The translations under genes and the position numbers were made by a program. From contig JADIIU010000175.1 of assembly GCA_027603945.1 (NCBI GenBank), forward strand, positions 1 to 22,664: a stretch of 22,664 nt of DNA. The letters are read 5' to 3'. Under the pieces are notes generated by a model. It worked only from the letters and a program-made list of their open reading frames with translations. It did no database searches and was not told where the DNA came from. Of this stretch, positions 1,357 to 22,664 are shown one piece after another. How positions within the stretch are numbered: the stretch's first letter is position 1; every line of letters begins with the position of its first letter. The stretch is from Terramyces sp. JEL0728. Lineage: Eukaryota; Chytridiomycota; Chytridiomycetes; Rhizophydiales; Terramycetaceae.

Positions 1357-1436
1357 ATATTTATTCTTTTTGCAACCAATAGATTTTTGCTGTTTCAACT
1401 CTGCCAGTTTCAAAATTCTGACAAAATAAATAGCTT

Positions 1437-3014
1437 ATGGGAAAAAAGATTACTACCTGTTCCAGTTGTACAAGAAAGAAACAGAGGTGCGGCAGAGAAA
1501 GACCAACATGCCGCAGTTGCTTGGATTCAAATGTCCTTTGTATATATCCTGACAATGTAGACTATGCAAATCTGAAAAAAGGTCTGCAAGTTCAGCAAAA
1601 ACTGTTCAATCAAGTAGACATATCCGGAACATTTGCAGACAAACTGGGCACATTTACAGGGGGGAAATCTCTTGAAATACAAAATGAGCTAAAAGGGGAA
1701 GCTGCAGAAAAACTATCTGTGGAATTACTTGCCAGATACTCGTTCATGTCTGCGAATGCCTTGATTTCAGCCAAAGAATCTTCATTAATGCTCAAATATA
1801 CCAATCGCGCTTTGGGGTTTGATCTAGCAGGAAAGACTGGCTTGGCCGAAAAATACATGGAGATTGCATTGTATTACTTTCAAGAGACAATATCTAAACC
1901 CAGCGTTGTCCATATCCGTGCAATTTTATCACTAGCACTGTTGAAAATTCGTAAGAACTCGTTAATTCAGGATTGAATCAATTTCAGCAAGGAGCTTTAT
2001 TTTATGTTTACGCAGTCAGTATGGCAAAACTAGTTGGAATCAACCGTGAAGCATCGCTCAATGTTTTATGCAATACTGACTTTGAAAAGGAAGAATGTCG
2101 AAAGTTGTGGTGGCATATTTACAGTTTAGATCAATGGATGAAATACAGGGGTAAATCAGTATTACACGACGAGGATAATAGAGTCTTTTTGCCAGATTCA
2201 AACAGTGATCGATCCAGCAGTTTGAGCTATCCACAATTAGGAATGGTGATTCTGTCCTCAACCGACTGGTTTACTCCTCCATTGGAAAACCAAAGCATTT
2301 CCGCAAACAGAATTTTGCTGACTAGGATGCTGAGCAAATCATTGCGCTTTAATCAACTCTATTATGGCAAAAAAAATAAGATCAATGTCTATTATATCCA
2401 TTCTGTTTTGGATGGCTCACTTCAATTGTGGTGGAACAACATCTCTCCTAAATTCGCACCGCATTTGTTACCACTGTACTCTGGAAAACAAGATTTTGCA
2501 ATCGAAAGTTGGAAAGTGTATGAACTTTGCATTTTATACAATTATCTTAAAGCCGACGTGTTGGTCCCATTTCTCATCAACCATATTTTAGAAAGAGAGA
2601 CAACTATCCAGCCGTTCTACCAGTTAGCTATTATTGCCAGCGAAAATGCACATTTATTAAATTTGATGCTGAACGCAAACGCAAAAGCAGTGTACTCAAA
2701 CTCTAGTTTTGCAGTAAACCAGACTCATTTAGGTTCCTATTTTCCATTTGACTTTTATCATCTATTGCGCGTCGCTGGCAACTCTACCTGACGGATTGAA
2801 ATCAGAATTACAGCAATCATTGACTGTGCATCTCGGCTGTGTATTAGAATTTAGCAAAGCGTCTCAAGCAAAACATCTGATCTCAAACAAGATCGAGTAT
2901 TTGATTTCAATCACTGATGTCAAACAATTGATTAAAGCTTTTATTGAACACAAAGTTCCTGATGATAATACCCGCAAAAGCAATTTTACTGTTCACAGCC
3001 TTGTCCCAGTCTGA
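1437..3014 (+). CDS. Zn2Cys6 fungal transcription factor (2 ultrashort introns)
   Basis: Predicted sequence-specific nuclear transcription factor of 512 residues. The DNA-binding domain is at the N terminus with C8, C11, C18, C25, C28 and C35 in a C-x2-C-x6-C-x6-C-x2-C-x6-C binuclear zinc cluster, with basic residues between C11 and C18. Residues about 150-350 match the fungal-specific (middle homology) domain, including ALFYVYAVSMAKLVGINREA and ECRKLWWHIYSLDQW. Three exons (1437-1950, 1971-2713, 2733-3014) are separated by introns of 20 and 19 nt. The first junction restores LLKIRLNQFQQGALF and the second NSSFAVPIFHLTF, each joining reading frames that otherwise end within a few codons. AATAAA follows the stop by 10 bases (3025-3030). 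Target genes are unknown. Confidence 0.92.
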
Positions 3015-3237
3015 TACCCATGGTAATAAACAGTCGTATATTTACGTGTTGCCGCATTGAAATAGAATTTTCACTTTACCAGAATAGAAATATCATGTCT
3101 TGCAGCTATTCGTTTCTACCAAAGTCAACGCTTGCTCTATTTCCTACATCTGTTGAATCCATTGATAAGATCAAAGGGTTACAATACATCCATCGCGTCA
3201 TTAAACGCACAAAATTCTTATACACGTCATCCAATAA

Positions 3238-4376
3238 ATGCCAAACGAATCCTATTTGTTTCAAATATGCGACTTTCACATTAACTACGCCAATTGTGGT
3301 AATTATACCCAGTACTTTGCCCAAGTTGATCACGCACTTATATTGCTATATGGTCTCACTTCATTTTGTTATGCAATGGTTATTCCGATTCAGTTGATTG
3401 CGGTTGGATTCACGAAAGGAGCTGCTTTGTCTAAATGCTGGACTAATATGGAAACGGCAATGATACTGAATGTTGCCTTTCAGCTAATCCGCATTGGATT
3501 CCATGTCAACTGTAATTCAAACTAATCTAGTATCCTCCATATCCACCGCAAATCTAAATTCTTGGACAGATTACGATATAGTATATTATATGCAAACGAA
3601 TATTGCGCTGGAATTAGTTTATTATCTTATTGGCGGTGTTTCAATTAGTATTTTTGTGTTTTCAATAATTGATGTTGCAGATGCCAGTCACTTGTATGAT
3701 AAAATCAAAATTGGAGAAAAGATTGTGGATTGCGGCAAGCTGCTTAAAGTCGTTCGGTTGCTTGGGATGATTGTATTCATTGCTTTCACAAGTCTATGGG
3801 CAACGAAAGGTTCTCTATATTAATATAGGATTGCACACGGATTACGAGACATACAATTTCTATCGCAGGTGTTTCTACAGTGGATTCGGTATTTTATCCA
3901 TGTTTTTGTCGTTCCCGGTTGTCTTGTTTTTTGGCAACAAGATTATCAATACAATGCTGCAAGTAGAATATTCCAAAACACACAGTTCCAGAGAGATTGA
4001 CGCTGCAAACAAATCTGAATTCAAGAGCGAGAAAACACATACGGGCAACTCTATTCAAAATCAACAAAAGGATACCAAAAGTGCAGAGCAAAAGACACGC
4101 CGTACTTCGCTCTCGAAATCATTTAGAGAAACAGTAAAGATGAAAAAGATCAATGATGCGATAAGCTTTAAGTTGCTAATTCGCGCAATAGCATTTTGGT
4201 TGTACTTTATGCTTGGTCTCACGATGGCTGTAATTATTATAGTTCATGAAACAACGCATGATCATTTGGCCCTACTAATCACCAAATGCCTCACTGAACT
4301 ATACATTTGGTCTTCGTCTGGATTTGCTGCTCTGTACTTTTTCAGGAGAGCAATGAATGCGAGAGTGAAATTATAA
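3238..4376 (+). CDS. seven-transmembrane receptor-like protein (2 ultrashort introns)
   Basis: 366-residue integral membrane protein with seven hydrophobic helices at about 32-58, 74-90, 116-140, 164-184, 203-224, 302-325 and 333-353. A Lys/Ser-rich loop of some 75 residues lies between helices 5 and 6, with a short basic tail. This is the layout of a G-protein-coupled receptor with a long third cytoplasmic loop. Possible N-glycosylation sites (NES, NYT) in the short N terminus suit an outside N terminus. I see no DRY or NPxxY-type motif and cannot place it in a family. Exons are 3238-3511, 3531-3809 and 3829-4376, with two 19-nt introns. The start follows an in-frame TAA directly. The stop overlaps AATAAA (4375-4380). 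Confidence 0.8.
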
Positions 4377-4495
4377 TAAAAAGTGATATTAACTATTCAA
4401 ACTTGTTTTAATCACTGTGCCAGATACTTATTGGTGGGATTCATACTAATATCTTGCTAATCTGATTTCAAGGAATTTTTTTTTAAAAAAATCAA

Positions 4496-5581
4496 ATGCA
4501 AATGATCAGGAATATCAGGCATTTGAAACGAATGTCGACTGAAGTTGAAAAAGTGTCCATTGTAAATCCACTACCACTGATTCCACGCTTAGAAACACAT
4601 TATTACGAAACTTTATATGATGATTTAATGGTTTTAACTTATGACCACAGTTCACCTCAAGCTTCACTAGAAAAATTGGCAAAGTCCAAATTCTGGAAGT
4701 CAAATTTGGATGCATTGGATGAAAACGTCTTTACTACCACCGTTGCGGATTTACCCACCAAACCAACTACCAGCGTCACATCTAATTTAAATACAGTATT
4801 GTATGAACACATTGGTCTCCCTATATTTCCAAAAATGATTAGAAACAAATTAAAGAATCCTATAGACTTTACCCCAATCAAAAAGGAAGAGTTTCTGGCA
4901 CCTGCTCTTCCTCCGCAACAATCTTCATACACTCCGTTCCCTAATAGAATTCCAGATTTAAAGAAAATCCAATTGAGAATATGGGCTGAAGAAGCAGTGG
5001 CCAACAAGTAGCCTTATCTTAATCCAGGTCCATTTTGCTATCCGCAATCATGTCATTGCAGTCTATAACTGGCAAGAGGCCAGATCCATTGTTTGCAGAA
5101 ACTGGCGATCACTCCAAAAAGATTAGAAAAGGAATGCCATTAGGTGCTACTGTTGAAATTAAAGGAGAGCAAATGTATTCATTCTTGGATAAACTGGTAC
5201 AATGCGTATTACCACGTATTAGAGAATATGAAGGTGTCAACCCTATTGGAAATGACAAAGGGTCTCTCACAATCACCTTGCCGGCATCAGCAATAGGTAA
5301 TTACACTTAATCTAGGTACTTTTCCAGATATCGAACCACACTTTGATTCCTTCCCTAGATTGTTTGAAACTGACGTAACATTCATTACAAGTGGAAGAAA
5401 TGACTACGAAACCTGTCTATTACTCTCTGGATTCCAGATACCGTTCTTGCCTGAAAAGAAAATTGTTGAAGAACGTAAAGTTGTATCAGATGATCCATGG
5501 GCGGCTATCAAGAGTGCCAAAACAAGAGAAGAAAGAAAGGCACTGTACGCAGATATTCAAAAACAGCGCCAAAAGAAATAA
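4496..5581 (+). CDS. MRPL7: mitochondrial large-subunit ribosomal protein uL5m (2 ultrashort introns)
   Basis: Mitochondrial ribosomal protein uL5 (Mrpl7 in yeast), 348 residues, expected in the central protuberance of the large subunit. The N terminus MQMIRNIRHLKRM is basic and lacks acidic residues, as in a mitochondrial presequence. The L5 core occupies roughly 180-330: SITGKRPDPLFA, KIRKGMPLGATVEIKG, LVQCVLPRIREYEGV, and the C-terminal domain FPDIEPHFDSFPRLFETD followed by GRNDYETCLLLSGFQIPF. A long fungal N-terminal extension precedes it and a basic coiled tail ends it. Exons are 4496-5007, 5028-5296 and 5316-5581, with introns of 20 and 19 nt; both junctions restore the L5 reading frame. 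The stop lies inside AATAAA (5577-5582). Confidence 0.9.
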
Positions 5582-6022
5582 ACTCTGCGTATTTCTTCCA
5601 ATATGCGGTTGTATGAACCAGTACTTGTGTGAGCCAGTACTTGTATGAACCAGTACTTGTATGAACCAGTACTATGTCTGCTTTTAATTTTGAATGAGGG
5701 CGGCGCGGATACAAGCAATGGTGCAACTTAAAAACAAATGTACGCCAGATTGATATTGAGGTCCGGATTTATGCAATGGCTGTATCCAGAGACTACCAGT
5801 GCAAATTCATGGTACGTTTGGTTGCGCATTGAATTCATCCTCTACATCCAGGAGCCTTAACGCCGGCTTCAATGGAAAATATCAGCAGCCGAGGGCCGTT
5901 ACTATCGATGGAGAGGCGATTCCGATTAAAACAACCTGCAGCATAATTAAATCACTCTTTAGCACAGCAACCGTCAGCCACAAAATAATCAAAGGCTCCA
6001 AAAAACTTTACAATCTAGTAAA
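5582..6022. other. intergenic region upstream of the GCK kinase
   Basis: This 440-base stretch holds a 4x16-base tandem repeat near its start and otherwise no convincing gene. A frame open from 5799 to 6062 overlaps the kinase start in another frame, has no neighbouring AATAAA and looks like chance. No clear TATA element is seen. It probably contains the kinase promoter and leader. Confidence 0.5.
5609..5672 (+). repeat. tandem repeat, four 16-base units
   Basis: Four head-to-tail copies of TTGTATGAACCAGTAC. Copies 1, 3 and 4 are identical; copy 2 differs at two positions (TTGTGTGAGCCAGTAC). The repeat begins 27 bases after the AATAAA of the uL5m gene. Each unit contains GTAC, so the array carries evenly spaced short palindromes. 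Confidence 0.95.
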
Positions 6023-9000
6023 ATGTCAATTGCACAGTATGCAAGGGACTTTCCCGTTCTGAAGACCATGCAAAATCCCAGAGGGCAAGTGCAGCTGATA
6101 GAAACAATCGGTAAAGGAAACTACGGCTCAGTATACAAAGTAACTCTGGTCTAACGGCAGGCAAAAATGCTCAAAGAGAATGAGCTTGTAGCGATTAAAG
6201 TTGTATTTCTAAAGGAGGACGAAATCAAGGAAACTTTATTAGAAATGGAAATACTGGAGAAATGCGTTCATCCAAATATCACCCGATTTCATCAATGTTT
6301 TCTGAAAGGATTGGATTTGTGGATTGCTATGGAATATTGTGGAGCGGGTGCTGTTGATTCAGTTTACAAAGGTTCCTGTTGTTAATAGTAGCGCTAAAGA
6401 AACCGTTGCCTGAAGAAGCAATTTCAGCAATTATTTATGAAACCGTATTAGCTCTTGAATACTTGCATACCAAAGTAGGTTTGATCCACAGAGATATAAA
6501 GTCTGGGAATTTGCTGTTGACCGAATCGGGAGAAGTGAAGTTGGCAGATTTTGGTGTATCTGCAATGCTGAAAAATGTTGGAGGAAAGGCAAGCACGTTT
6601 ATTGGGACACCGTAACTATTTCTAATGTAGATATTGGATGGCTCCTGAAGTTATCATGTGCGACCCTGACAACCCAAAAAGTGCCAGTGCTTCATATTCT
6701 GACAAGTCAGACATCTGGTCGATTGGAATTACGGTTATTGAAGTCGCGGAAAAGAATCCACCACTATGCGATATTCATCCGATGCAAGCGTTAAATTTAA
6801 TCCCAAAAACCAACATTGGCCTTGCAAAACCAAAGAATTTCTCCAAGCAGCTGGTTGATTTTGTTGCATTCTGTTTAGAAAAGAATCCAGACAAGAGACC
6901 GTCTGCCACAGAGTGCTTAAAGCATCCTTTCTTGGCACCTTCTGCAACTGCTGAGCGTGGCCAAATATTAACGCTTTTGGTGGACAAAGTTAAAAATATC
7001 AGAGAAAAAAAGAAGCTCGGAATTGAGATTGTTGATGAAGATGAAGACTTTACCCGAGATCAAAGCCAAATACCGCCAAAAGCGATTCAAGAAACTATCA
7101 AGAATGCACAGAAAGCCCAAGAAAGCCTTGCGCAACAAGAACAAGGGTTCCAAGGACATACAAATCAAGAGTTTGCCCCGCCTCCTTCCTTTAGCGACTT
7201 TCCAAATCTGGAAAACAAAATCCAAGACGGCGCCTCTCCTATATTTGATCCAATTGCGCTCACCTCTCTTACTACAGAAGTCAACACGGCTGCATTCCTC
7301 GATGGCCAATATATTTTGCTTGGAACTGAAAGGGGAATGGCTTATCTGAATATTATGAAACCGGCCATGAAGATTCCTGTAATACTAATCCACAACGTGC
7401 GTTTCCGCCAAATAGAAATATTGCCAGAATATAATGCATTGATTGGCTTGTCCGGAAAGCATGATCAAATCAGACAATACAACCTGTCATCTATCAGAAG
7501 ACTTATCCTCTTTAACGAAGGCAATGCAGCATCCTTAATTGCAAAGACCGACACTACTGTTCCTCTGCCAAATGTTGTTTTAGGAGGAAACGAGGTGCCA
7601 ACGAACGAATACTCTTACCTCAACAGAGAAGACAATGTTGATGAGGCCACACTCGTATCAAGATGGACAAATGAATTTATTAAAATAGTCGGGACAAAGG
7701 ATACTAAAGAATTCTACATTGAGCAGACTGAATCTACTGCATTCTTGATCACTTTTGGGGCTGGAATTGTGTTGTTCAGATGGGCCGCAGAACCATACAA
7801 GAAATTCATGAAAATCAAGGAATTCTGGGTTCCAGAACAGCCGAAATTCGTTTCATTTGCCCAAGACGGACTTGAAATTACTGATATTTTCCTTGGATAT
7901 TCTGGCGAACTTAATCGTGTATCAGTTGCAACCTCAAGGGTAACCACCATCAATACACACAAGGAAATGAAATCCAAAGGGTTTGGATCCACAAGATGGC
8001 AAGCCATCCTGCAGATTCCGTACTCTGACGCAAAACTGGCTGAAGTTTTACGAGAAAACGCAAGAGCTTCTGGCACATCGATTAGAAAGCTTGCTGCCGT
8101 CAACGGCCCAACTCTTAAACGCCAACCAACCATGCAGCAGCGTTATTTCTTGGGAACCTATCACAGAATGACCAAAGTTGTTGATGAAAATGGACATCCC
8201 ATGGTTGGCGCAAGTGTTGGTGGTTGGCAAAAGGGTGTCATTTGGAGTGATCCTCCTATGGAACAAGTTCTCCGTCCCCTTCAAACCGTTGCTTCAGTTG
8301 GAAAAAACAATATCGAAATCGTAGACTGGAAGTCTGCTGAACTGCGCCAAAGATTAACTGTTAATTCAAATGGCACATTCAAGGTATTCTCAAACAAACA
8401 TGGACAAACGTTGATTGGTGTTGAAAAGAAGAAGCAGGGTATCTTGCTGTACTGGATGAGAGAATCTTCAGAGCCTCCCCGTGTAGTTGGTACTTTATTG
8501 GCAAAGGTAATCATGGAACAGCAGCCGCAAGGGTACGATTTGAAGGCACAGTCTCCGATTACAAATGAGCCAAAGATTGATAATCAATTAAAACGACTAG
8601 CGATTAATCCTGGAGAAACCTTTGACCAGCAATTTGGAATTGACAAGGATCTTCCTCAGCAACCGCAAGATGACTTTGATCACCAGCCGCGTGTGGTCCA
8701 GCACTCTTACGATGAACCTCGTGTGTTTCAATCTTATGACAAAGTAGGAGATAGTTTGAAATCGACTTCGCACGAATCATTCAACAAACCGCCTCCTATG
8801 AAGGAACCGTCAGCAGTTTCGCTAGGCAATGCATCCCTCTCAACACCTCTCCCATCCCGTGATTCGCCAGCTGTTTCTCCAAATAATCAACCGTACAATT
8901 TACCAAAGCCGGCCGACTTTATGAAAAGACCAGATTCACCCAGTTCAAAAGCGGATTTGGAAAGGAAAGGCTCAAGCTCCAGTATAAACACTGGCCCTCC

Positions 9001-9943
9001 CAATCAATACAGGCCGCCAAATGCAAATAATCCACCTAGAGTGACTTCCCCGGATGGATATGATCCAAGATACCGCCCAAGACCTCCAGTTGAAGAGAGA
9101 ATGTTTGCAAGACCAAACGATGGATTCTACAGACCGCCACCTGAAGGGTTTATCCGTCCTCCGCCAGAAGGATTCATTCGTTCGCCACAAGAAGGTTTTG
9201 CCAGGCCACCTCATGAAGGGTTCGCCCGGCCTCCAGAAGGATTTAGGCCGCCTATTGATGACCCTCGCTATCATGGATACAGGTCAAATTCACCAAGTAT
9301 GCCTCGTCCTTATCCACCTGGGGCTCGGCCAATGCCAAGACCTGACCCTCGTTATATGCAAGGACCTCCACCACCAAACTTTGATCCTAGATACCGCCCA
9401 CATGCAGTTGATAATAGATCAATGAGTATTAGTTCCGATGGTCATGATCACCCAGATCCTCGCTTCCACAACCGTCCGCCAATGGATCCACGAGATCCTA
9501 GATATCACCAACGTCCTCCAATGGATCCAAGATTCCAACAGCGACCTCCAATGGATCCAAGGGATCCTAGATATCACCAACGTCCGCCTCCGATGGATCC
9601 AAGAGACCCTAGGTTCCAACAGCGACCTCCGATGGATCCAAGAGACCCAAGGTATCAGCAGAGACCACCATTTGAAAGAACTCAGTTTGAAGGTAGACAA
9701 GGACCTGATTTTGATTATGGTCGAGGGCCAAGCTTTGATGGAAATAGAGGTGGGTTCAGTCCTCCTCCTCCTCGACCAGGCTTTGATCCAAGACGTCCTC
9801 CATTTGATCAGCATCGTGACCCAAGAGATATGCGTCCACCACAAGATCCAAGAGATATGCGTCCACCACAAGATCCAAGATATGCTTATAGGCCGCCAAT
9901 GGATCCAAGAGACAGATATGACCCAGCACCGCCAGGAAACTGA
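6023..9943 (+). CDS. germinal-centre (MAP4K-like) Ser/Thr kinase with CNH domain and Pro-rich repeat tail (3 ultrashort introns)
   Basis: Cytosolic Ste20/GCK-family kinase of 1286 residues. Visible catalytic motifs are glycine loop [10 protein letters not shown] (30-39), VAIKVV lysine, [17 protein letters not shown] and the Ste20 signature GTPYWMAPEV, ending with [13 protein letters not shown] charged linker leads to a citron-homology (CNH) domain at about 392-810, the arrangement of metazoan MAP4Ks, which act above JNK/MAPK cascades. Residues about 990-1286 are a disordered tail of PPPEGFIR repeats and [11 protein letters not shown] repeats. Exons are 6023-6139, 6161-6371, 6392-6611 and 6631-9943, with introns of 21, 20 and 19 nt; the last splits the Pro codon of GTPYWMAPE. 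The start was chosen as the first ATG in frame with the glycine loop. AATAAA lies 22 bases past the stop (9966-9971). The gene converges on the thioredoxin-like gene with 47 bases between stops. Confidence 0.95.
9130..9936 (+). repeat. coding repeats in the kinase tail (RPPPEGF and [11 protein letters not shown] units)
   Basis: In-frame degenerate repeats in the kinase 3' end. About five RPPxEGF units occur around 9130-9250, and about six [12 protein letters not shown]-xQ units at 9473-9670, with shorter DPRDMRPPQ copies at 9820-9900. The DNA repeats mirror the protein repeats (ATGGATCCAAGAGA recurs), so unit number may vary between strains. Confidence 0.85.
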
Positions 9944-9990
9944 GGGTAATAGTATAAATATCATCAATAAATAAATCAAGTTTAAATTTA

Positions 9991-10779
9991 TTAGTCGTCG
10001 TACGATTTACCAGAAACAGATCCATAGGTGTGCTTGTTTCTTCTTTGAACATATGCAACAGCTGCAACAGCAACAACACCAACCACCAACAAGAATGGTA
10101 AAATGGAGGCAGTTGAGGTAACAACCTAAATTAAACTGAATTTACTGGAGTGTCTTCGACAACTTGGTCTTCCAATTGAACTGGTGGATGAACATCGTGA
10201 TGGGATTCATCGTCATAGTCTTTGTTTGCTTTGACAACTGGCTTGACTTCGTGGTCAGCAATTCGCGCTTTCCCGTCTGAATTTTCCTTGACCAAAAGCT
10301 TAATGTAATTGAACAAAGTTTCGGTTTCGTCTTCAGATGGATATTCTTCCAATAGTTTGCCATCAACATATGTCAGAAGGGTTGGGAATCCATCAACGTC
10401 ATATTTGTCAATGCAAAACTCTGAAATTAAAAACTCTAGTTACTTTCTTTATCAATAGCGCATTCGACTTTGTACATTTCGAATCCGTGTTCCTTGTAGC
10501 CGGCAGCCTTTACTTTGTTTTGAACTTCTAAATATTTGGGATTAAATCTATGTGAATTGAAAAATACTTTTGGGTGTTATGGCACCAATTAGCTCCAAAG
10601 AATATGATTAGAGTTTTTGCGCTCTTGATTTTTGGTGCAATTTCATTGAATTTCAAGAAATCGAGGCTCTTGTCAATTGCATCGGATTCCTTGCGCAATT
10701 GCACTTTTTGTTCGTGGGTCATTTTCCCCGATACCAGAGAGAATATCCAGAAGAAGACTAACAAGGTATTCCCAAGCAT
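9991..10779 (-). CDS. ER-type thioredoxin-like type I membrane protein (3 ultrashort introns)
   Basis: 241-residue predicted secretory-pathway protein. A signal peptide (MLGNTLLVFFWIFSLVSG) is followed by a thioredoxin fold (about 30-150) with IIFFGANWCHNTQKF at the active-site position and GFPTLLTYVDGK containing the cis-proline. An acidic, His-containing linker, one C-terminal membrane helix (ILPFLLVVGVVAVAAVAYV) and a short basic cytosolic tail follow. The active site has C-H-N-T instead of CxxC, so only the first cysteine remains. That favours a mixed-disulfide, chaperone or binding role over a full oxidoreductase. Exons run 10568-10779, 10444-10547, 10146-10420 and 9991-10125, with introns of 20, 23 and 20 nt. 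The stop overlaps AATAAA (complement of 9987-9992). The promoter space is only about 70 bases and contains a TCACGTGA palindrome. Confidence 0.88.
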
Positions 10780-10825
10780 TCTTTTTTCGAAACAAAGAAA
10801 CTCGCAAAAAGCAAATCAACCACAG

Positions 10826-10833
10826 TCACGTGA
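10826..10833. promoter_or_regulatory. E-box palindrome TCACGTGA
   Basis: A perfect 8-base palindrome containing CACGTG, the core site of bHLH factors such as Cbf1 or USF-type proteins. It lies in the roughly 70-base gap between the TCAIM-like gene's AATAAA and the thioredoxin-like gene's ATG, 47 bases upstream of the latter. Function is inferred from position only. Confidence 0.45.
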
Positions 10834-10873
10834 TCGTATAACAAGGCGTCGTTTATTAAAAGTCAGATTGAGA

Positions 10874-11673
10874 TTACTGTAATGCTTTAAGCCAATGTTC
10901 ATAGTTTTGGATATCCAACATTTCCAGTACACCACCACTTCTGTAAGTCTATGAGTTCAAGTGAATGAATCCACAAGGTGGTATTCAACAGTCTAAACCT
11001 CAGTGAATTCCCTGGACACTCTTTCAAAGTTGCTTTGAATATAATTTTGCAAAAGCTTGTCATTAAAATCCCACGGTACAACAAAAATGCCCCTGGCAGC
11101 CCTAAATTCATATTCAACTAGCCATGGAAGACCATTCAGGAATTTGACCAGCTTATTCGCTGCTATTGACTTTTGCTGAACGGACAAGCCTTTGGCATAT
11201 ATCACCATCGGCAATCGGTACGACTGACACTGACGATCCATAATAATAGACTTTAGTTCATCTTCAAATCGTTCTTTTTCCTTGCTCTCTGGTTTCGGAT
11301 CGTCGCTCCACATATCCAAATCATTTTCGGCTATTTTAATTCCAAATTCTTGGCATAGTTTGATAATCTCTCCAGTCCAGCTTTTCATCAATACTTTGTT
11401 CCTTTTCTTGTGATTCCTCAAAGATAATGGAGTGAAATGTCTGTATGGATCCAGCTTTAATGATTTTTGAGTTGATTTCGTTGCAAGGTGAATTTCTGTT
11501 GGGGATAATTTATCCAAGTTTGAACTGGCAATATTGGAAAGGATTAAATTCAGCTCTTGAACAGACTTTTCATTCATACGCCTGACAAGTGGGTTATTTG
11601 CAAAATAATCAGGGTGAACTTTCAGCAGCAATTGGTTGTAGTATTTCCTCGTCACTGAAATTACTTTTTCCAT
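10874..11673 (-). CDS. TCAIM-like (DUF4460/DUF4461-type) protein, 3' end tentative
   Basis: Likely mitochondrial protein related to TCAIM. Residues 8-30 (YYNQLLLKVHPDYFANNP) resemble the DUF4460 J-like segment with its HPD motif, followed by VRRMNEKSVQELNLIL. Later, GLPWLVEYEFRAARGIFVVPWDFND resembles the DUF4461 end. It is much shorter than animal TCAIM. The unspliced frame stops at 10993 (FTEV), but no AATAAA lies near that stop. A further open segment ending at 10874 (SGGVLEMLDIQNYEHWLKAL) does have AATAAA 17 bases on (complement of 10852-10857). Joining the two needs a 50-nt intron (10949-10998) or two smaller ones, so the C terminus (249 versus 226 residues) is uncertain. Its start codon is only 31 bases from the Snf2 stop. 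Confidence 0.68.
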
Positions 11674-11704
11674 TTGAAAAAATTAGAACTGATACTCGGC
11701 TTTA

Positions 11705-14700
11705 TTAAAAGTCTTCATTTGGAATTGGTCGGATGCGTTTTCCACTGTCAAAATCACCGTCATCGTCTTCAATCACTCGCGGCCTTTTTTGGTTTACAGT
11801 TTGAAATTCACGATTCAAAGTATCTTGGAACGCCTGTCTCATCGTGATAGCATCATGATAGACGTCAGAGCCTTCCAAATTGTATTGTAACGCATTATTG
11901 AACATTAAAGTCATATCGTTTACGAATTGATTCACAGTTGTATAGTATGGAGAGTGGATTCTGTGCGCAATCATGTCCAATGCAATTGGGTTCTGAATAA
12001 ACTTGTAATAATCGGCGTAATCTTGGCGATCAGGAAGCTGTAGGAATAGTTCCGATCTTCTCCTTGTATATCTATCGTTAGACTCATTCTACCCTTCGAC
12101 TTCAACTTCAAGTTCTTCCACTGCCCTGTAGCAAGCCTTGAAAATTCTAGTGTAGTTTTCACGAGTGTCAGGATCAAGCACGTCTTGCATTTCAGGGTCG
12201 ACTCCTGCAAAGTGCTTCTTTGTTCTCCCTCTCTTCTTTTTAGACAGTTGTCCTTCTTCAACTTTTTGACGAGCTGCCCTTTTCTTTGGGTTTTCAGAAT
12301 CTGGCTCAGGGTCTGGCAATTCAAGCGGATCGTCAATGTATTCATCTTCATCGGAATCGACAATTTCACCGGCATCTCTTCTTGCTTTTCTGTCTGCAGC
12401 CTGTCTTTCTTTACGAGCCCTGATTTCTGCTTGCCTAGCTTTCTTTCTGGCAATGAATCCATTCAAATCGCCATCATCGACTGCATTCAGCCATTGATCT
12501 TCATTCAAACCATCATCATATGCAACATCTTTTCTTTGACGAGCACCACGACCGGTATGTAGAATTTCGACAGGCTTGTCATCGTTAGGATCCTTCAAGA
12601 AGATATCTGGCAATTCGCTGTCTTGCATTAATCTTGGTGGAACAGTGCCAACACCGCCATGGAATTCCCAGCTAGCTTGTTCGGCAGCTCTTCTTTCAAC
12701 ATCCATCTTGTTGTAGAGTTCCAACTCTTCTTCATTTCTTGCAATTATTTCATTAAGATCAGTATCTTCAATTTCTCCTTCCTTATCTTCAATTTTTTCA
12801 TCTGGATCTTCATCTTCGTTACCAAAAAGAGATCGAAGCAGCTCTTCTCTCTCACGATCGCTGGTTTTGTTGTCGAATTTACCAGCTTGAATAACTTTAC
12901 CATCAATATCAAGCTTGTATTGAGCACGAGCAAGAATTGTTTCTTCAACGGATTTGGAAGTTACAAGACGCAGGATACGCACTTCTTTCTTTTGGCCGAT
13001 TCTGTGAGCACGATCCTGGGCTTGTAAATCCTGGTGGGGATTCCAGTCGGAATCATAAATAATTACAGTATCGGCAGTTTGCAGGTTCAAACCCAGACCA
13101 CCTGCCCTGGTACTGAGCAAGAAGATGAAGGGTGGATTTTCAGACTTGTTGAATTTGGTCAACATGTCTGTCCTATCATCTGCTTTGGTATGGCCATCGA
13201 GCCGCAAGAACGAGAAATTCTTCCATCGCAAGTAATCTTCCATAATATCCATAATCTGGGTCATTTGGAAGAACATTAGCACACGATGGTCATTTGCTTG
13301 AAATTTCGGTAATATACGATCCAAAAGTTCGAATTTGCCAGCCACTCTAAACAAATTCCTGTCAGTAATGTGTCCAGGATTCATGATATCTTCCACTTCA
13401 TCAAATACGTATGGGTGGTTACAAATCTTTCTGAATTGCATGACTAGGTTGTTTAAAGCTTTTTTCCTAATGTTAGGAGATTTTACTTTGTGAACCCTTC
13501 GTTGCCAAACTTTCTGTTTTTAATCTGCTCAGTAAGGCGATATTGAAGGGCAGACATTGGGCACTTGATGACAACTTCAACTTTATCAGGAAGATCTGCT
13601 TCCACATCTTTCTTTAACCTACGAAGCAAGAAAGGTCGCAGCACCTTGTGCAGACGTCTAATAATCAACAATTGTTCTTCTTCATTAAGTTCTATACGTT
13701 CTTGGATACTACTAGCATTGAATGGAGAATTGAACCATTCATCAAACGACTTTACAGAGTTGAAGATTTTTGGTAGAATAAAGTTTAAAAGTGCCCACAG
13801 TTCTGGCAAGTTGTTCTAAATTAAACAGAGAATACCTGGAGCGGGGTTCCAGTAAGGATCAGGCGATATCTAGAAGAGTAGAACTGCATCAAAGTAAGCG
13901 CCAATTTGGAGTTGGCATTCTTCATTCTATGGCCCTCATCGATAATCATGTGGACCCACTTGATCTTTGACAAGATTGGACGATCTTTTGGATTAATAAT
14001 ATATTCATAGGTGGTTAGCAAGACGTTAAAGTTTCCAACTCGGACCAAGTTGCTTAAATTCTTACGCTCGTTAGGAGAGCCTTTGTACACGATTTTCACA
14101 ACAGAAGGAGCCCATTTTTCAAATTCCAATACCCAGTTGGTCATGGTAGACAGTGGAACAATAACCAAGAAAGGACCAGGCTGTTTCTTTTTGTCAATCA
14201 AATAAGTGATCAAAGCAAGGGTTTGAATCGTCTTTCCGAGCCCCATCTCATCTAAAGTTATCGATGTGGATACCTGCGAGGATGCCATTCAATCTGTTGT
14301 TGTAAAGAGAAACCATCCATTGCAGACCTTTAACCTGATAATCCTTCAGCGTACCGCCAACCAATAAACTGGACTGTTCATTAATTTCCTCTTGTATTCT
14401 GTGCGCGGTGGCATAATAGTCTTTAACTCCTTCTTCCTCTTCATCTTCCAGCATAGAAATGTTTGCTCCGGCTGGCAGAACCGATACATCCACTTCTTGA
14501 ACAGAGGATTTTTGTTTTTCTACAGCGTTGGTAAGAGTTGTCAAGAACTGGTTGGTCTGCTCCAAAATTGTAGTGATACGGGTATCTTTAGTTTTATCAA
14601 GCAGACGCATATAAGCTTCTTCGTCATTGGCTTTCAATGCATTCAAACGCTCTTGGGAATGTTTCTGTAATCTTCGTTCTTCTTCCTTTAATGCGGCATT

Positions 14701-15651
14701 GTGGAAACGCATTACAGCAGCACCAAGCTTGACCATTCTGCCCGCCTGATGACGATGGGCGGTAAGGAAATCTCTACCATGGGCCAGGATAGAGTTGATG
14801 TAATCCAAATGCTTTTGACGTTCACGCTTTTCCTTTTCTCCACGCAGGGCCCGCTCTTGTTTTTCGGTCTGTCTTGCTTCACGAAGCGATTGCTTCTTCA
14901 TCCTTCTGAAAGAGCTTCTGTCAATAGCTGTGGTTAGAGTGGTGGATTTTGAAAGAGAGGTAAGCAGCTCTGCACGCAGGTTTCTTTGTTTATCCAGCAA
15001 TTGCAACGACTTTAGCTCAATAAGAGCCTTTAATTTCGCATCTTCGTTATTGGTAACAGTGCTTGGTAGATTTGCCAGCTCTTCAACACGGTAATCCACT
15101 CTGGCACGAATGAAACGCTCCTTTTCCTTCATCAGAGCTACAGGGTCAACTGCAGGAGGTAATAGGGACGGAACAAGTAATCGCTGGCCATGTTCAGCTG
15201 CAGCAATTGGCTTTTTGATTGCTGCATAAGCATTTTGCTGACTTAGTTTGACTGTAGTTTCCACAACTTTTTGGGCTACATTTGTAGCAGCTTCTTCAGT
15301 GTTATTTTCAAACAATAATTGTTGTAATGTTGCTGGAAGCTGTTCATTATTTGACAAGAGCTTGTAGCTTTGAATTTGAAATTTTAGAGTCGACAATTGC
15401 TGAGGAGTTAGTTTAGTATCTCCTCCGGCTTGATGAGCTTGAACTTGGGTCCAAGATCGCAAGACTTGCATCAGACGAGCATACTCTGGGTCAGTTTCTT
15501 CAGTTGCTCCCATTTCCTTTTTCTTTTTCGCAGACTAGATTAATATTTTAATTACCTGGATGAATCCGTTTACTTGTTCTGGAGTTAGTTGTGTAGGATT
15601 CATAATATGCTGGGGAATTCCGGCAGGGCGAAATCCCATTGGAGATTGCAT
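11705..15651 (-). CDS. snf2: SWI/SNF- or RSC-type chromatin remodelling ATPase, Snf2/Sth1 (5 ultrashort introns)
   Basis: Catalytic subunit of a SWI/SNF-class nucleosome remodelling complex, 1280 residues. In order: a QLQ motif near 73-108 ([19 protein letters not shown]); a basic HSA helix near 245-325, which binds actin-related proteins; the SNF2 ATPase from about 427 with DEMGLGKT (Walker A) and DEGH; the helicase C lobe with [12 protein letters not shown] and QDRAHRIGQ; a SnAC segment ([12 protein letters not shown]); a basic AT-hook-like [10 protein letters not shown]; and a C-terminal bromodomain ([20 protein letters not shown]) that would read acetyl-lysine. Exons are 15556-15651, 14274-15534, 13836-14251, 13487-13815, 12093-13466 and 11705-12071, with introns of 21, 22, 20, 20 and 21 nt. 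One intron interrupts the Asp codon of DEMGLGKT. The stop overlaps AATAAA (complement of 11701-11706). The sequence does not decide between the Snf2 and Sth1 subtypes. Confidence 0.96.
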
Positions 15652-15748
15652 TTTGAGATCTGAAGTGAAAATTTTCGTGGGGCTTAGACTTGATCACTCA
15701 AAATGATAACCGAAATTCTTTTTTCACTTTTTCACTTTATTTCGCAAT

Positions 15749-16014
15749 CTAGACACATTTTACAACTTTGATAATGGGAAGAATTGGATTTTCGTGAATA
15801 CCGCCCTTTTTTCGAATTTGAAAAAGTTTAAAATTCATAGATATAGGGAAATATAATTGCCGAGACAGTTGTGCGATAATTTCAGCTTGGGATTGTACCC
15901 GCCATTGGTTTTCATGGTATTTAGAATCTTGCAAGGATAATACGACTAAATATAGATTGCAGCATAACACAATCTCTGCGGTGAATTATCATTACCACTA
16001 TTTAATTCATCCAT
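15749..16014 (-). CDS. probable small hidden gene, 81-residue protein (1 ultrashort intron)
   Basis: Not recognised as any family. A 74-codon open frame begins without its own ATG. A 20-nt sequence (15976-15995) with the exact local intron pattern (GTAA start, TTCAC six bases before a CAG end) joins it in frame to a 19-base first exon starting ATG GAT GAA. The result is an 81-residue protein with a hydrophobic stretch (VLCCNLYLVVLSL) and a charged middle (YHENQWRVQSQAEIIAQLSR). AATAAA (complement of 15736-15741) lies 7 bases past the stop, as at the proven genes. It fits snugly between the Snf2 promoter and the ML gene end. Evidence is structural only, so a chance arrangement remains possible. 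Confidence 0.55.
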
Positions 16015-16050
16015 AGACAAGTACCATAAAAACATATGCAATGACATTTT

Positions 16051-16544
16051 TTATTTTTCGAATTTCAAGTCCCCAGACATACACGCAATTTCGGTATTGT
16101 TTGCATCATTTACCTTGATTTCTACATTATAGGTGCCGGAAGGAATGAGCGAGGATACCTCTTGAGAAGCTTGAACATCTTGCGAGCCAGCAGGAATTGG
16201 ACAGGTTTTGTTTGCTTTCTTTGCCTGAGTGCAGAAATCTTCAGTCTTGCTGAAAAAAGGGATTCCCAATGCTTTCACAGTGAAAGTGATTGTTGTTCCA
16301 TTTTGGATTGGGGCAGATAAAGTGCCATTTGCGTTTACATGTACGTCTTGGCCGATTTTAATCTACGTTAGCGCGAGCTTACCGGATAAGGCGTTAAAGT
16401 AATGTCGGCCAGCTTGAATATGTCAGATTTATCTCCGCACGACTTTAATGGATTGGCGTTATTGGAGGAGTCATCTTTGATATTTCCATGAGTAAAGGGA
16501 GTAGCAGCAGCAGTTACAACAGAAGCAATCGCAATGAATTTCAT
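16051..16544 (-). CDS. secreted ML-domain (NPC2-like) lipid-binding protein 1 (1 ultrashort intron)
   Basis: Secreted MD-2-related lipid-recognition protein of 157 residues, expected to bind sterol or phospholipid in a beta-sandwich. A signal peptide (MKFIAIASVVTAAA) is followed by the conserved cysteine pattern PLKSCG, DFC, CP and EIACMSGDLKF. The frame is continued by a 20-nt intron (16363-16382), giving TLTPYP then IKIGQDVHVNANG. The MKF start was chosen because it gives the same length as the neighbouring paralogue and lies about 25 bases after a TATA box; an ATG five codons upstream is in frame. The stop lies inside AATAAA (complement of 16050-16055). It is the tandem paralogue of the gene at 17013-17486. 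Confidence 0.92.
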
Positions 16545-17012: not shown

Positions 17013-17486
17013 TTATGGTTTGACAATTTGAACCTTTCCAGCCAAGCAGACGATTTCATTGTTGCTTGGGTCATTGACGGTAATGTGCAAGTCAAAGGTT
17101 CCGGCTGGGACAGAGCTTGGGATAAGTTCAGTCAATTGGATTTGTTGAGGTCCTGGAGCAATTGGGCATGAAACGTTGACTTTGGCAGCTTCATCGCAGA
17201 AATCCAACTTTTTATTGATCAATGGGATCAAGCCAAGTTTGACTGCTACATTGACAACAGTTCCAGCTACAATGGTTGAAGATAAAGCTCCTGATGCTGC
17301 AATGACGATAGATTGGCCAGCTGGGATTGGATATGGAGCCAAAGTGACTTGGCTGACAGTCAAAGTATCTGCTGAGGTTCCGCAAGATTTGAGTGGAGCA
17401 ACTGGGTCTTGGAAGATGTTTTTCATCACCAAGTCAGTTCTAGCAGAGACGACAGCGATAGCAGCAAAGATGGTTGAGAATTTCAT
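17013..17486 (-). CDS. secreted ML-domain (NPC2-like) lipid-binding protein 2
   Basis: Paralogue of the ML protein at 16051-16544 and of the same length, 157 residues. A signal peptide (MKFSTIFAAIAVVSA) is followed by APLKSCG, VTLAPYPIPAGQSIVI, KLDFCDEA, VSCPIAPG and NNEIVCLAGKVQIV, the ML-domain cysteine and strand pattern. It is intronless: the position of the paralogue's 20-nt intron falls between P and I of TLAPYPI, where coding sequence runs through. The start was chosen by alignment with the paralogue and by a TATA box 30 bases upstream; an ATG four codons earlier is also in frame. AATAAA lies 2 bases past the stop (complement of 17005-17010). The ligand is not predictable. Confidence 0.93.
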   Translation of the reverse strand: MKFSTIFAAIAVVSARTDLVMKNIFQDPVAPLKSCGTSADTLTVSQVTLAPYPIPAGQSIVIAASGALSSTIVAGTVVNVAVKLGLIPLINKKLDFCDEAAKVNVSCPIAPGPQQIQLTELIPSSVPAGTFDLHITVNDPSNNEIVCLAGKVQIVKP

Positions 17487-17515
17487 TTGATTGTACAAAA
17501 GCTAAATTTCTGTTC

Positions 17516-19944: not shown

Positions 19945-21231
19945 ATGCAGTTCCTTGCTTTATTGGTCACAAGCGCTTTAGCAGCTACTGTCCCATGCTC
20001 AACAGTAGACACTAGAGTAGAATGGAGAAGACTGCCAGCTGCAAATCAAAATGCTTACATTCAGGCTGTTCGCTGTTTGAAGTTCAATACTCCATCACGC
20101 TTACCAAACTCTGGGAGTTTTTCTCTCTATGATGATTTGGTTTATATTCACAGCCAAGCTGTCCAAGTAGCACACAATCACCCTGCTTTCTTGCCATGGC
20201 ATAGACTAATGTTGTCTGTATACAACGGGTTCTTGCGTTCAGAGTGCAAGTACACTGGACCTATGCCATACTGGGACTGGACCATCGACTCCCAAGCTCC
20301 TGAAATGTCTCCAATTTGGGCTTCAACTGCTTTTGGTGGAAATGGCAACCAATTTGGCTGTCTTCAAGCACCATTCGCTGATTTCTACCGTAGAGATGCC
20401 AACAACCCTCAGCAATTTGTTTGTGTGCAAAGAAAATGGGTTAACGCTGGAAACCCGCTTCAAGGTGCGTATGTTGCTCCTGTATCCATTCAATGGATTA
20501 ATCAACAATCCACCACCTATGATCTTTTCAGGCAATACATGGAAATTTACCCACACAACACTGTCCATGCTTCTATCTGCGGGGATATGTGCGACCCAAG
20601 AATCTCTGTCAATGACCCAATCTTCTTTATGCACCATGGAAACGTCGATAGATTATGGTCTGTTTGGCAACACTCTAATCCTCAACATCAAAATGCTTTT
20701 GGGGGTTCTGGTGCTGATGTTGCTGCTGCAATCACTGATATCATGAACATGTTTGGGCTTGTAAACAACTATCCGGTTTATGAATTGCTCTCAACTATTG
20801 GCGGTGGTGCTGACGGAAAAATGTGTTATGTCTATGACAACACAGCTCCAACTGCCGCACCTTCCAAAGCTGTTACTCCATCAAACGGCAGTGCGGCAAA
20901 CTCTAATATTTCAAAGCGCAACAATATCTCACCCCATCCGTTTGATCGTACCGACAAGCTCAATATTCGTTACGTAGAACCTCTCTCGACTGAATTCCTA
21001 AAGAAATGGAAGTACAATGACAACGAAATCAAGCTTGTTCGAAAGATTGAAGAAACTCTGCGAAAGATTACCGAGGAAATCAACCTGGATCCAGAATATC
21101 TTTCTCCTGTCAGATTGGAATTGTTGGAAAAGGGAGTACAAAATGGATGGGTCGACAAGACTCCTGAACAACAAGCAAAAGACGAACAGTCTGTCTTGGC
21201 TGCATTGAAAAGGGCAATGACTCATATTTAA
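19945..21231 (+). CDS. secreted tyrosinase 1 (type-3 copper monophenol/diphenol oxidase)
   Basis: 428-residue tyrosinase that would hydroxylate monophenols and oxidise diphenols to quinones for melanin-like pigment. A signal peptide (MQFLALLVTSALAA) is followed by the CuA site with H69, H77 and H86 (YIHSQAV, HNHPAFLPWHR) and the CuB site with HNTVH and NDPIFFMHHGNVDRLW. PMPYWDWT is the usual conserved core. After about residue 310 comes a C-terminal extension with a dibasic SKRNN and a charged helical end. In fungal tyrosinases such extensions cover the active site until cleaved; here that is inference. The gene is intronless. The start was chosen from the TATA box position and by alignment to tyrosinase 2. 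The stop overlaps AATAAA (21230-21235). Confidence 0.96.
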   Translation: MQFLALLVTSALAATVPCSTVDTRVEWRRLPAANQNAYIQAVRCLKFNTPSRLPNSGSFSLYDDLVYIHSQAVQVAHNHPAFLPWHRLMLSVYNGFLRSECKYTGPMPYWDWTIDSQAPEMSPIWASTAFGGNGNQFGCLQAPFADFYRRDANNPQQFVCVQRKWVNAGNPLQGAYVAPVSIQWINQQSTTYDLFRQYMEIYPHNTVHASICGDMCDPRISVNDPIFFMHHGNVDRLWSVWQHSNPQHQNAFGGSGADVAAAITDIMNMFGLVNNYPVYELLSTIGGGADGKMCYVYDNTAPTAAPSKAVTPSNGSAANSNISKRNNISPHPFDRTDKLNIRYVEPLSTEFLKKWKYNDNEIKLVRKIEETLRKITEEINLDPEYLSPVRLELLEKGVQNGWVDKTPEQQAKDEQSVLAALKRAMTHI

Positions 21232-21967: not shown

Positions 21968-22664
21968 ATGCAAGTTATTAATTTATTGATTGCTACTGCT
22001 ATCGCTGGAAATGTTCCTGCTTCTACTGGCTGCAAAACTGTCACCAACCACGTGGAATGGAGAAGAATGACTCCTGCCAACCAAAAGGGCTATATCCAAG
22101 CTGTCAGATGTTTGAAATTCAACACCAAATCAAAGTTGCCAGCTTCTGTCGGGTCAAAGTCCATCTACGATGATATGGTCTACATCCACAACCAAGCTGT
22201 GGAAATTGCTCACAGCCACCCAGCTTTCTTGCCATGGCACAGATTGATGCTCGGCACTTACTGGGGATTCTTGCAAAACGAGTGCAAGTACACTGGACCA
22301 ATGCCATACTGGGACTGGACCATCGACTCTCAAGCTCCTGAACTGTCTCCAATCTGGGCTTCAGCTGCTTTTGGTGGAAATGGCGATGCTGCTACTGGCT
22401 GTATCCAAGCTCCATTTGCTGATTTCACCCGCAAAGATATGGATAATCCAAGCCAGACTGTTTGTGTCCAGCGCCAATGGAGCAACGCAACCAACCCATT
22501 AATGGGAGCCCAAGTTTCTCCAGTTACTATCCAATTCATTATGCAGCAAAAAGATTTCGACCACTTTAGACAATACTTGGAAGGTTACCCACACAACACG
22601 GTCCATGAATCTATCTGCGGGGATATGTGCGACCCAAGAATCTCTGTCAATGACCCAATCTTCT
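21968..22664 (+). CDS. secreted tyrosinase 2, cut by the window end
   Basis: Tandem paralogue of tyrosinase 1 with 232 codons visible and the frame still open at the last base. A signal peptide (MQVINLLIATAIAGNVPA) precedes CKTVTNHVEWRRM. The CuA site has YIHNQAVEIAH and HSHPAFLPWHRLML, PMPYWDWTIDSQAPE follows, and the visible part of CuB shows HNTVH and NDPIF. The third CuB histidine and the C-terminal extension lie beyond the window. No intron is seen. Codons end in C more often than in tyrosinase 1, which may reflect higher expression. The last 55 bases are identical to the matching part of tyrosinase 1. Confidence 0.95.
   Translation, partial: MQVINLLIATAIAGNVPASTGCKTVTNHVEWRRMTPANQKGYIQAVRCLKFNTKSKLPASVGSKSIYDDMVYIHNQAVEIAHSHPAFLPWHRLMLGTYWGFLQNECKYTGPMPYWDWTIDSQAPELSPIWASAAFGGNGDAATGCIQAPFADFTRKDMDNPSQTVCVQRQWSNATNPLMGAQVSPVTIQFIMQQKDFDHFRQYLEGYPHNTVHESICGDMCDPRISVNDPIF

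Follow-up and report, generated by a model that had tools for sequence, protein, structure and literature searches.

A chytrid genome that appears to carry thousands of spliceosomal introns, almost all of 19-22 nt

The genome of Terramyces sp. JEL0728, a chytrid fungus, appears to contain thousands of spliceosomal introns, almost all of which are predicted to be 19-22 nucleotides (nt) long. The analysis concerns contig JADIIU010000175.1 (contig 175; 22,664 nt), which was analysed as a whole and is referred to as the window, and the genome to which it belongs (15,016,339 bases in 231 contigs). A preliminary description of the window had proposed 18 introns of 19-23 nt, all of which were confirmed in position and length. 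It had also raised the prospect of a fungal-type genome in which ultrashort introns are the normal class. This is supported by length bins in 200 kb of sequence, by loci on 16 other contigs and by nearest named proteins that come from a chytrid. A length distribution centred above about 40 nt, which would have spoken against such a class, was not what the coding-based method gave on about 287 kb of the 15.0 Mb (about 2%, window included), and a whole-genome motif scan agrees.

The main sample was C1:1-200000 (200 kb), and the gene finder relied on coding statistics with no length preference between 14 and 500 nt. When only GT and AG were required at the ends, the finder called 25 junctions of 17-23 nt in C1 and the window, compared with 1-4 for five other dinucleotide pairs, and its calls at longer lengths resembled these controls. 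Donor, branch and acceptor scores were then learned from the motif-free calls, with GT-AG imposed in the wider sample. The motif-scored finder, still flat in length, made 222 calls on C1, 128 of which were 19-22 nt. Six decoy runs with shifted sites gave 5, 1, 3, 2, 3 and 4 calls of that length. Since 128 junctions stand against 1-5 in the decoys, a chance origin of the 19-22 nt junctions is excluded. At this working setting it was the sole bin above the decoys; the other counts (decoy ranges in brackets) were 3 at 14-18 nt (0-4), 4 at 23-31 nt (3-7), 6 at 32-60 nt (10-17), 17 at 61-120 nt (18-27), 32 at 121-250 nt (27-36) and 32 at 251-500 nt (25-36). Several of the long calls have an entire short-intron unit at their start or end, a sign that they may have been fused over an exon that was missed. 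A stricter setting gave 80 introns of 19-22 nt on C1, compared with 0-3 in the decoys.

The length class was also found outside the sequence used for training. At 19 loci on 16 other contigs (64,075 bases), 44 of the 81 calls were 19-22 nt, and three decoy runs gave 1, 0 and 1. Eighteen of the 19 loci gave 43 introns of this length. A pattern without any coding model (GTAA, 3-33 free bases, CTAACNNTAG; 17-47 nt allowed) had 268 matches in the whole genome compared with 178 for the reversed pattern. Among the first 100 of the 268, 76 were 20-22 nt, one was 18 nt, five were 23 nt and 18 were spread over 26-46 nt. A strict 19-22 nt intron pattern had 229 matches on both strands of C1:1-200000 and 54 in the reversed sequence. 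The density of 0.64 introns per kb, scaled by the finder's sensitivity in the window (15/18), extrapolates roughly to 10,000 introns in the genome, a figure that comes from one contig and that assembly duplications would inflate.

The predicted introns have a consistent anatomy. C1 and the window together hold 92 predicted genes of at least 100 codons, 58 of which have at least one short intron. These genes contain 151 introns of up to 31 nt, including 142 of 19-22 nt; 127 of the 142 start with GTA and 100 end with TAG. A branch site could be scored in 133 of the 142 and not in the other nine. The distance before the branch A is 13-15 nt in 128 of the 133, a spacing which the finder does not impose. 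The distance after the branch A is 4-7 nt, also in 128 of 133, but this spacing is partly imposed because the finder seeks the branch 2-9 nt from the end. Among the motif-free calls of 17-23 nt, a branch-like motif is present in 39 of 43 and lies with 5 or 6 nt after its A in 32 of those 39. The YTRAY motif (Y, pyrimidine; R, purine) occurs in 118 of the 133 scored introns, for which the scoring matrix was itself learned from such motifs; the commonest forms are TTAAT, TTAAC, CTAAT, CTAAC and TTGAC. The length is not a multiple of three in 114 of the 142. An in-frame stop is present in 26 of the 28 whose length is a multiple of three, which is not used as a sign of selection because the finder sees stop-free introns of such lengths poorly.

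The 18 window introns share these features. All begin with GT and end with YAG (14 TAG, 4 CAG), and 16 begin with GTA. Each of the 18 has its best branch-like A at a distance of 13-16 nt from the 5' end, with 5-6 nt separating it from the 3' end. YTRAY is present in 15, with weak variants in the introns at 2714 (CTCAT), 10548 (TTCAC) and 14252 (ATAAC). Removal of the introns leaves a single open frame per gene, starting at a start codon. The finder recovered 15 of the 18 exactly at the working setting and 8 at the stricter one. Relatives or Pfam domains provide further backing for 13 of the junctions, eight of which fall within Pfam domains above the cut-off (kinase, three; thioredoxin, two; Fungal_trans, L5_C and ML, one each). 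For the introns at 2714, 3512, 3810 and 10126, the support consists of the open frame and the motif.

Nine of the introns are on the forward strand. The gene for a Zn2Cys6 fungal transcription factor (1434..3016; three exons, 512 aa, assigned by Pfam) has introns at 1951..1970 (20 nt), within the Fungal_trans domain, and at 2714..2732 (19 nt). A membrane-protein-like gene without a Pfam match has an intron at 3512..3530 (19 nt). The next intron, at 3810..3828 (19 nt), has a GTT donor, and the gene finder favours a donor at 3792 instead. An L5-family ribosomal protein gene (4497..5581; three exons, 346 aa), recognised by its Ribosomal_L5_C domain in Pfam, is interrupted at 5008..5027 (20 nt), where the Pfam L5 match is below the cut-off, and at 5297..5315 (19 nt), within L5_C. 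A protein kinase with a CNH domain (6023..9943; four exons, 1286 aa, of which the first 1022 were run against Pfam) has three introns in the kinase domain, at 6140..6160 (21 nt), 6372..6391 (20 nt) and 6612..6630 (19 nt). The second of these has a GTT donor and an alternative end at 6388, which would make it 17 nt long; the 20-nt form is the better fit to the geometry.

The other nine are on the reverse strand. A thioredoxin-domain protein gene (9990..10783; four exons, 241 aa, assigned by Pfam) has one intron outside the domain at 10126..10145 (20 nt) and two within it at 10421..10443 (23 nt) and 10548..10567 (20 nt). The Snf2/Sth1 helicase gene (11705..15651; six exons, 1280 aa) has five, at 12072..12092 (21 nt), 13467..13486 (20 nt), 13816..13835 (20 nt), 14252..14273 (22 nt) and 15535..15555 (21 nt). 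The last intron, at 16363..16382 (20 nt), belongs to a gene for a small secreted-type protein and is within its ML domain. This gene (16050-16544) stands next to one for a similar small secreted-type protein on the same strand (17013-17487), which can be read without an intron. The preliminary description had also placed a 19th intron at 15976..15995 (20 nt, reverse strand) in a probable gene. Its geometry fits and its removal joins an open frame of 88 codons, but the hypothetical gene has no Pfam match and the intron was not called by the finder, so it is unproven.

The Snf2/Sth1 gene is the best validated in the window. The alignment is gap-free at the junction in six of six relatives for four of the introns and in four of six for the first, where two of the six relatives lack the N-terminus. 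The unspliced reading runs into a stop at all five introns, and removal of the intron at 14252..14273 restores the motif ADEMGLGKT. Among the best 120 of 6036 matches, the top one is Boothiomyces sp. JEL0838 with 94% identity over the full length, followed by one at 65% and by Gorgonomyces, Batrachochytrium, Polyrhizophydium and other chytrids at 58-63%. Boothiomyces belongs to the Terramycetaceae (Rhizophydiales, Chytridiomycota). The gap-free alignment means that these segments are already missing from the public JEL0838 protein; the gene model behind it has, in effect, treated them as introns.

The segments are very probably ordinary U2-type (major-spliceosome) introns that have been reduced to, and are held at, about 20 nt by a two-part ruler. 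One part would be the 13-15 nt that separate the branch A from the 5' splice site, and the other the 4-7 nt (mostly 5-6) between the branch A and the 3' splice site. Splicing would follow the normal two steps, with U1 and later U6 pairing with the first nucleotides (GTA...) and U2 pairing with YTRAY. The few free nucleotides between the U6 and U2 helices would then set the minimum length. The branch A would attack at a distance of 13-15 nt and the AG 4-7 nt further on would be used; with so little space after the branch, the first AG to follow would serve as the 3' splice site. An upper limit may arise if recognition now expects the branch and the AG at fixed places. The segments are presumably removed by the spliceosome in the cell, and the pairing and active-site geometry proposed here are drawn by analogy from known spliceosomes.

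Several parts of the spliceosome were found in the genome. U2 snRNA has one Rfam match (140 bits), with the branch-pairing sequence GUGUAGUA intact; the window itself had no match in Rfam. Yju2 aligns with the human protein from residue 1 and has a full N-terminus. Cwc25 keeps its N-terminal glycine plug, and its MGGGDLNLKKSWHP start is conserved with human. Slu7 and Prp18 are both above their Pfam cut-offs. On the basis of yeast work, Slu7 and Prp18 would be expected to be dispensable where the branch and the AG lie so close together. Their loss was considered and is rejected since both are present. The idea that tiny introns generally require the loss of the Cwc25 plug is likewise rejected, as the plug is present in this genome.

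Isy1 differs from the usual form at its N-terminus. The match to human Isy1 covers the protein from about KPKRPF on, but the start reads MAPKTLAQKQE instead of the usual MARN..EKA. The start is identical in Boothiomyces sp. JEL0838, which is the nearest named match (91%). Isy1 of Gorgonomyces (MPPKASQL) also lacks MARN..EKA, and that of Globomyces (MANNQKEK, then HRFREQ) departs from it partly. The canonical start is kept in Thoreauomyces, Gonapodya, Capsaspora and a sequence labelled Hompol1, presumably Homolaphlyctis. A pattern search of 98 Isy1 homologues gave 39 with the canonical start and 59 without, a count that is little informative because many of the 59 begin at an internal methionine and a few are near-canonical (e.g. 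MARSSEKA). ATG12 and Isy1 (L042, minus strand) are divergently oriented neighbours whose start codons are 32 bases apart; therefore, any missed upstream exon of Isy1 would need to overlap ATG12 or lie beyond it. The replaced N-terminus may help to fit the tight loop into the active site.

Two explanations do without splicing. On the first, the segments are errors of sequencing or assembly, or lesions in pseudogenes, and the reading frames are broken by chance. Indel errors alone can break frames, and the assembly has repeated stretches, but errors would not produce a GTA start, a YTRAY at a fixed place and a YAG end across many genes. With 1-5 junctions in the decoys against 128, and with five Snf2/Sth1 joins that are gap-free against relatives, this explanation is taken as refuted and its probability is close to nil. 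The segments could instead be translated or bypassed in frame, through frameshifting or reassigned stops. A change of frame is indeed needed in the 114 of 142 cases whose length is not a multiple of three. The fixed spacing of splice and branch motifs argues against such a bypass, no additional residues occur in relatives at the tested junctions, and stops end genes normally; an unspliced reading is therefore extremely improbable.

A third explanation accepts the short introns as real but as one class among others, with many longer introns missed by the finder. It draws on small excesses of longer calls and on the likely 70-nt intron in Isy1 discussed below, as well as on the method, which is coding-based and thus blind to introns in untranslated regions and which sampled only about 2% of the genome. 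Against it, no bin above 22 nt exceeded the decoys in the 200 kb at the working setting, several of the long calls look like fusions, and all 18 window introns are short. Many missed longer introns are thus improbable.

Some observations nevertheless weigh against a single class of ruler-held U2-type introns of about 20 nt. The stricter setting gave slight excesses on C1 at 14-18 nt (3 vs 0-2) and at 121-250 nt (14 vs 5-11), and the out-of-training loci gave excesses at 32-60 nt (5 vs 2, 1 and 0) and at 23-31 nt (2 vs 1, 1 and 0). Given these small excesses, a small longer class may exist beside the introns of about 20 nt. The first intron of Isy1 is apparently 70 nt (L042, minus strand; G000:C35 near 112,300). 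It resembles three consecutive short-intron units: removal of the whole 70 nt gives the Isy1 start of JEL0838, and separate removal of the three units also keeps the frame open but adds three residues. No such tandem units were found in C1:1-200000 or the window, nor in the reversed control. U1 was not found in the genome with its Rfam model. The U6 model scored no higher than about 27 bits, below the cut-off of 44, at two near-identical loci from which the AGC triad is missing. Of the matches to two U6 sequence patterns, all but one (L035) were run against Rfam, and none of these was recognised as U6. These non-detections are not evidence of absence because the control genomes of the search tool are prokaryotic. 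The two loci of about 27 bits (L030 and L031, on C199 and C111) carry a U6-like repeat in which ACAGAGA is present and the AGC triad is absent. Finally, the introns are predictions from genome sequence.

Genome-wide tiny introns are of a known kind, occurring in ciliates, a nucleomorph and mikrocytids, and introns of about 20 nt are nearly as short as any on record and much shorter than is usual in fungi. PMC10245619 gives lengths of 18 to 21 bp for a chlorarachniophyte nucleomorph, 15-16 bp for heterotrich ciliates (such as Stentor coeruleus) and 16 or 17 bp for mikrocytids, with 224 introns in 179 mikrocytid genes. The nucleomorph resembles the chytrid in having many spliceosomal introns of nearly the same narrow size range, but it is the relic nucleus of an endosymbiotic alga and not a 15-Mb fungal genome. 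Mikrocytids share the very narrow length range and the strong sequence conservation. In contrast to the chytrid, they are intracellular rhizarian parasites and have 224 introns compared with the roughly extrapolated 10,000 here.

Stentor is the closest comparison for the splicing machinery. As described in the sections of PMC9505925 used here, its tiny introns start with GUA, GUAGUA is conserved in its U2 and the Yju2 N-terminus is conserved, all as in the chytrid. The same sections describe a non-conserved Isy1 N-terminus, and the likeness to the non-canonical Isy1 start in the chytrid is drawn from that description. The two systems differ in that the Stentor loop is tighter (about 10 nt), the Cwc25 glycine plug is reported as missing and Slu7 and Prp18 are listed as not found in the table of that paper, whereas all three are present here. 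That the Isy1 N-terminus is replaced in this genome and non-conserved in Stentor is no demonstration but a correlation seen in two lineages. A tentative and rather doubtful extension is that the spliceosome of this chytrid lineage has been retuned to accept essentially only introns of about 20 nt, with both an upper and a lower limit, partly through replacement of the Isy1 arm, which extends into the active site, and with the Cwc25 plug, Slu7 and Prp18 kept. If this were true, Isy1 would be a size determinant of the active site for splicing that arose by convergence.

Intron lengths in Paramecium are broader than those found here. Paramecium, the nucleomorph and dicyemids were named in 2008 as having the shortest introns known, in the part of PMC2483917 cited here; Paramecium and dicyemids are like the chytrid in having short introns at relatively high density, but they are not fungi. 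The same part places fungal branch points typically about 13-25 nt from the intron end. Among fungi, Cryptococcus neoformans is described as rich in short introns. Its introns average 56 nt, and in the sections cited of the 2025 paper (PMC11913375) those below 60 nt are called ultrashort and a small population below 40 nt splices poorly, whereas 20 nt is the norm in the chytrid. No figure for intron lengths in Batrachochytrium or Encephalitozoon was found in passages of PMC3569864, PMC5364385 and PMC3629993. No report of a genome-wide class of about 20-nt introns in a chytrid or other fungus was found among the papers listed by searches of open-access literature, which is not proof that there is none.

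The window and the assembly have several additional features. Two adjacent tyrosinase-like genes (19946-21231 and 21968-22664; Pfam was run on the first only) are both open without an intron, and the second extends past the end of the window. Two small predicted proteins (41-245 and 1105-1356) are alike and both carry the motif FND(I/V)A; Pfam gave no match for the second. Elsewhere in the assembly there are pairs of loci whose match scores are equal or nearly so, such as G000:C30:109246-109529 and C33:23205-23488, as well as kinase matches on C18, C3, C26 and C42. Some of these pairs are located in one contig, tens of kilobases apart. The pairs are either recent duplications or uncollapsed haplotypes in the assembly.

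How short a spliceosomal intron can be is a matter of physics, namely of how near to each other the helices at the 5' splice site and at the branch can be placed. Tiny introns have been described from ciliates, a relic nucleus, parasites and dicyemids, and a chytrid with thousands of 20-nt introns would add a fungal comparison. Since its relatives include groups with a conventional Isy1, intron length can be compared with changes in the parts of the spliceosome. Genes of this lineage may also be broken up by gene finders that expect longer introns.

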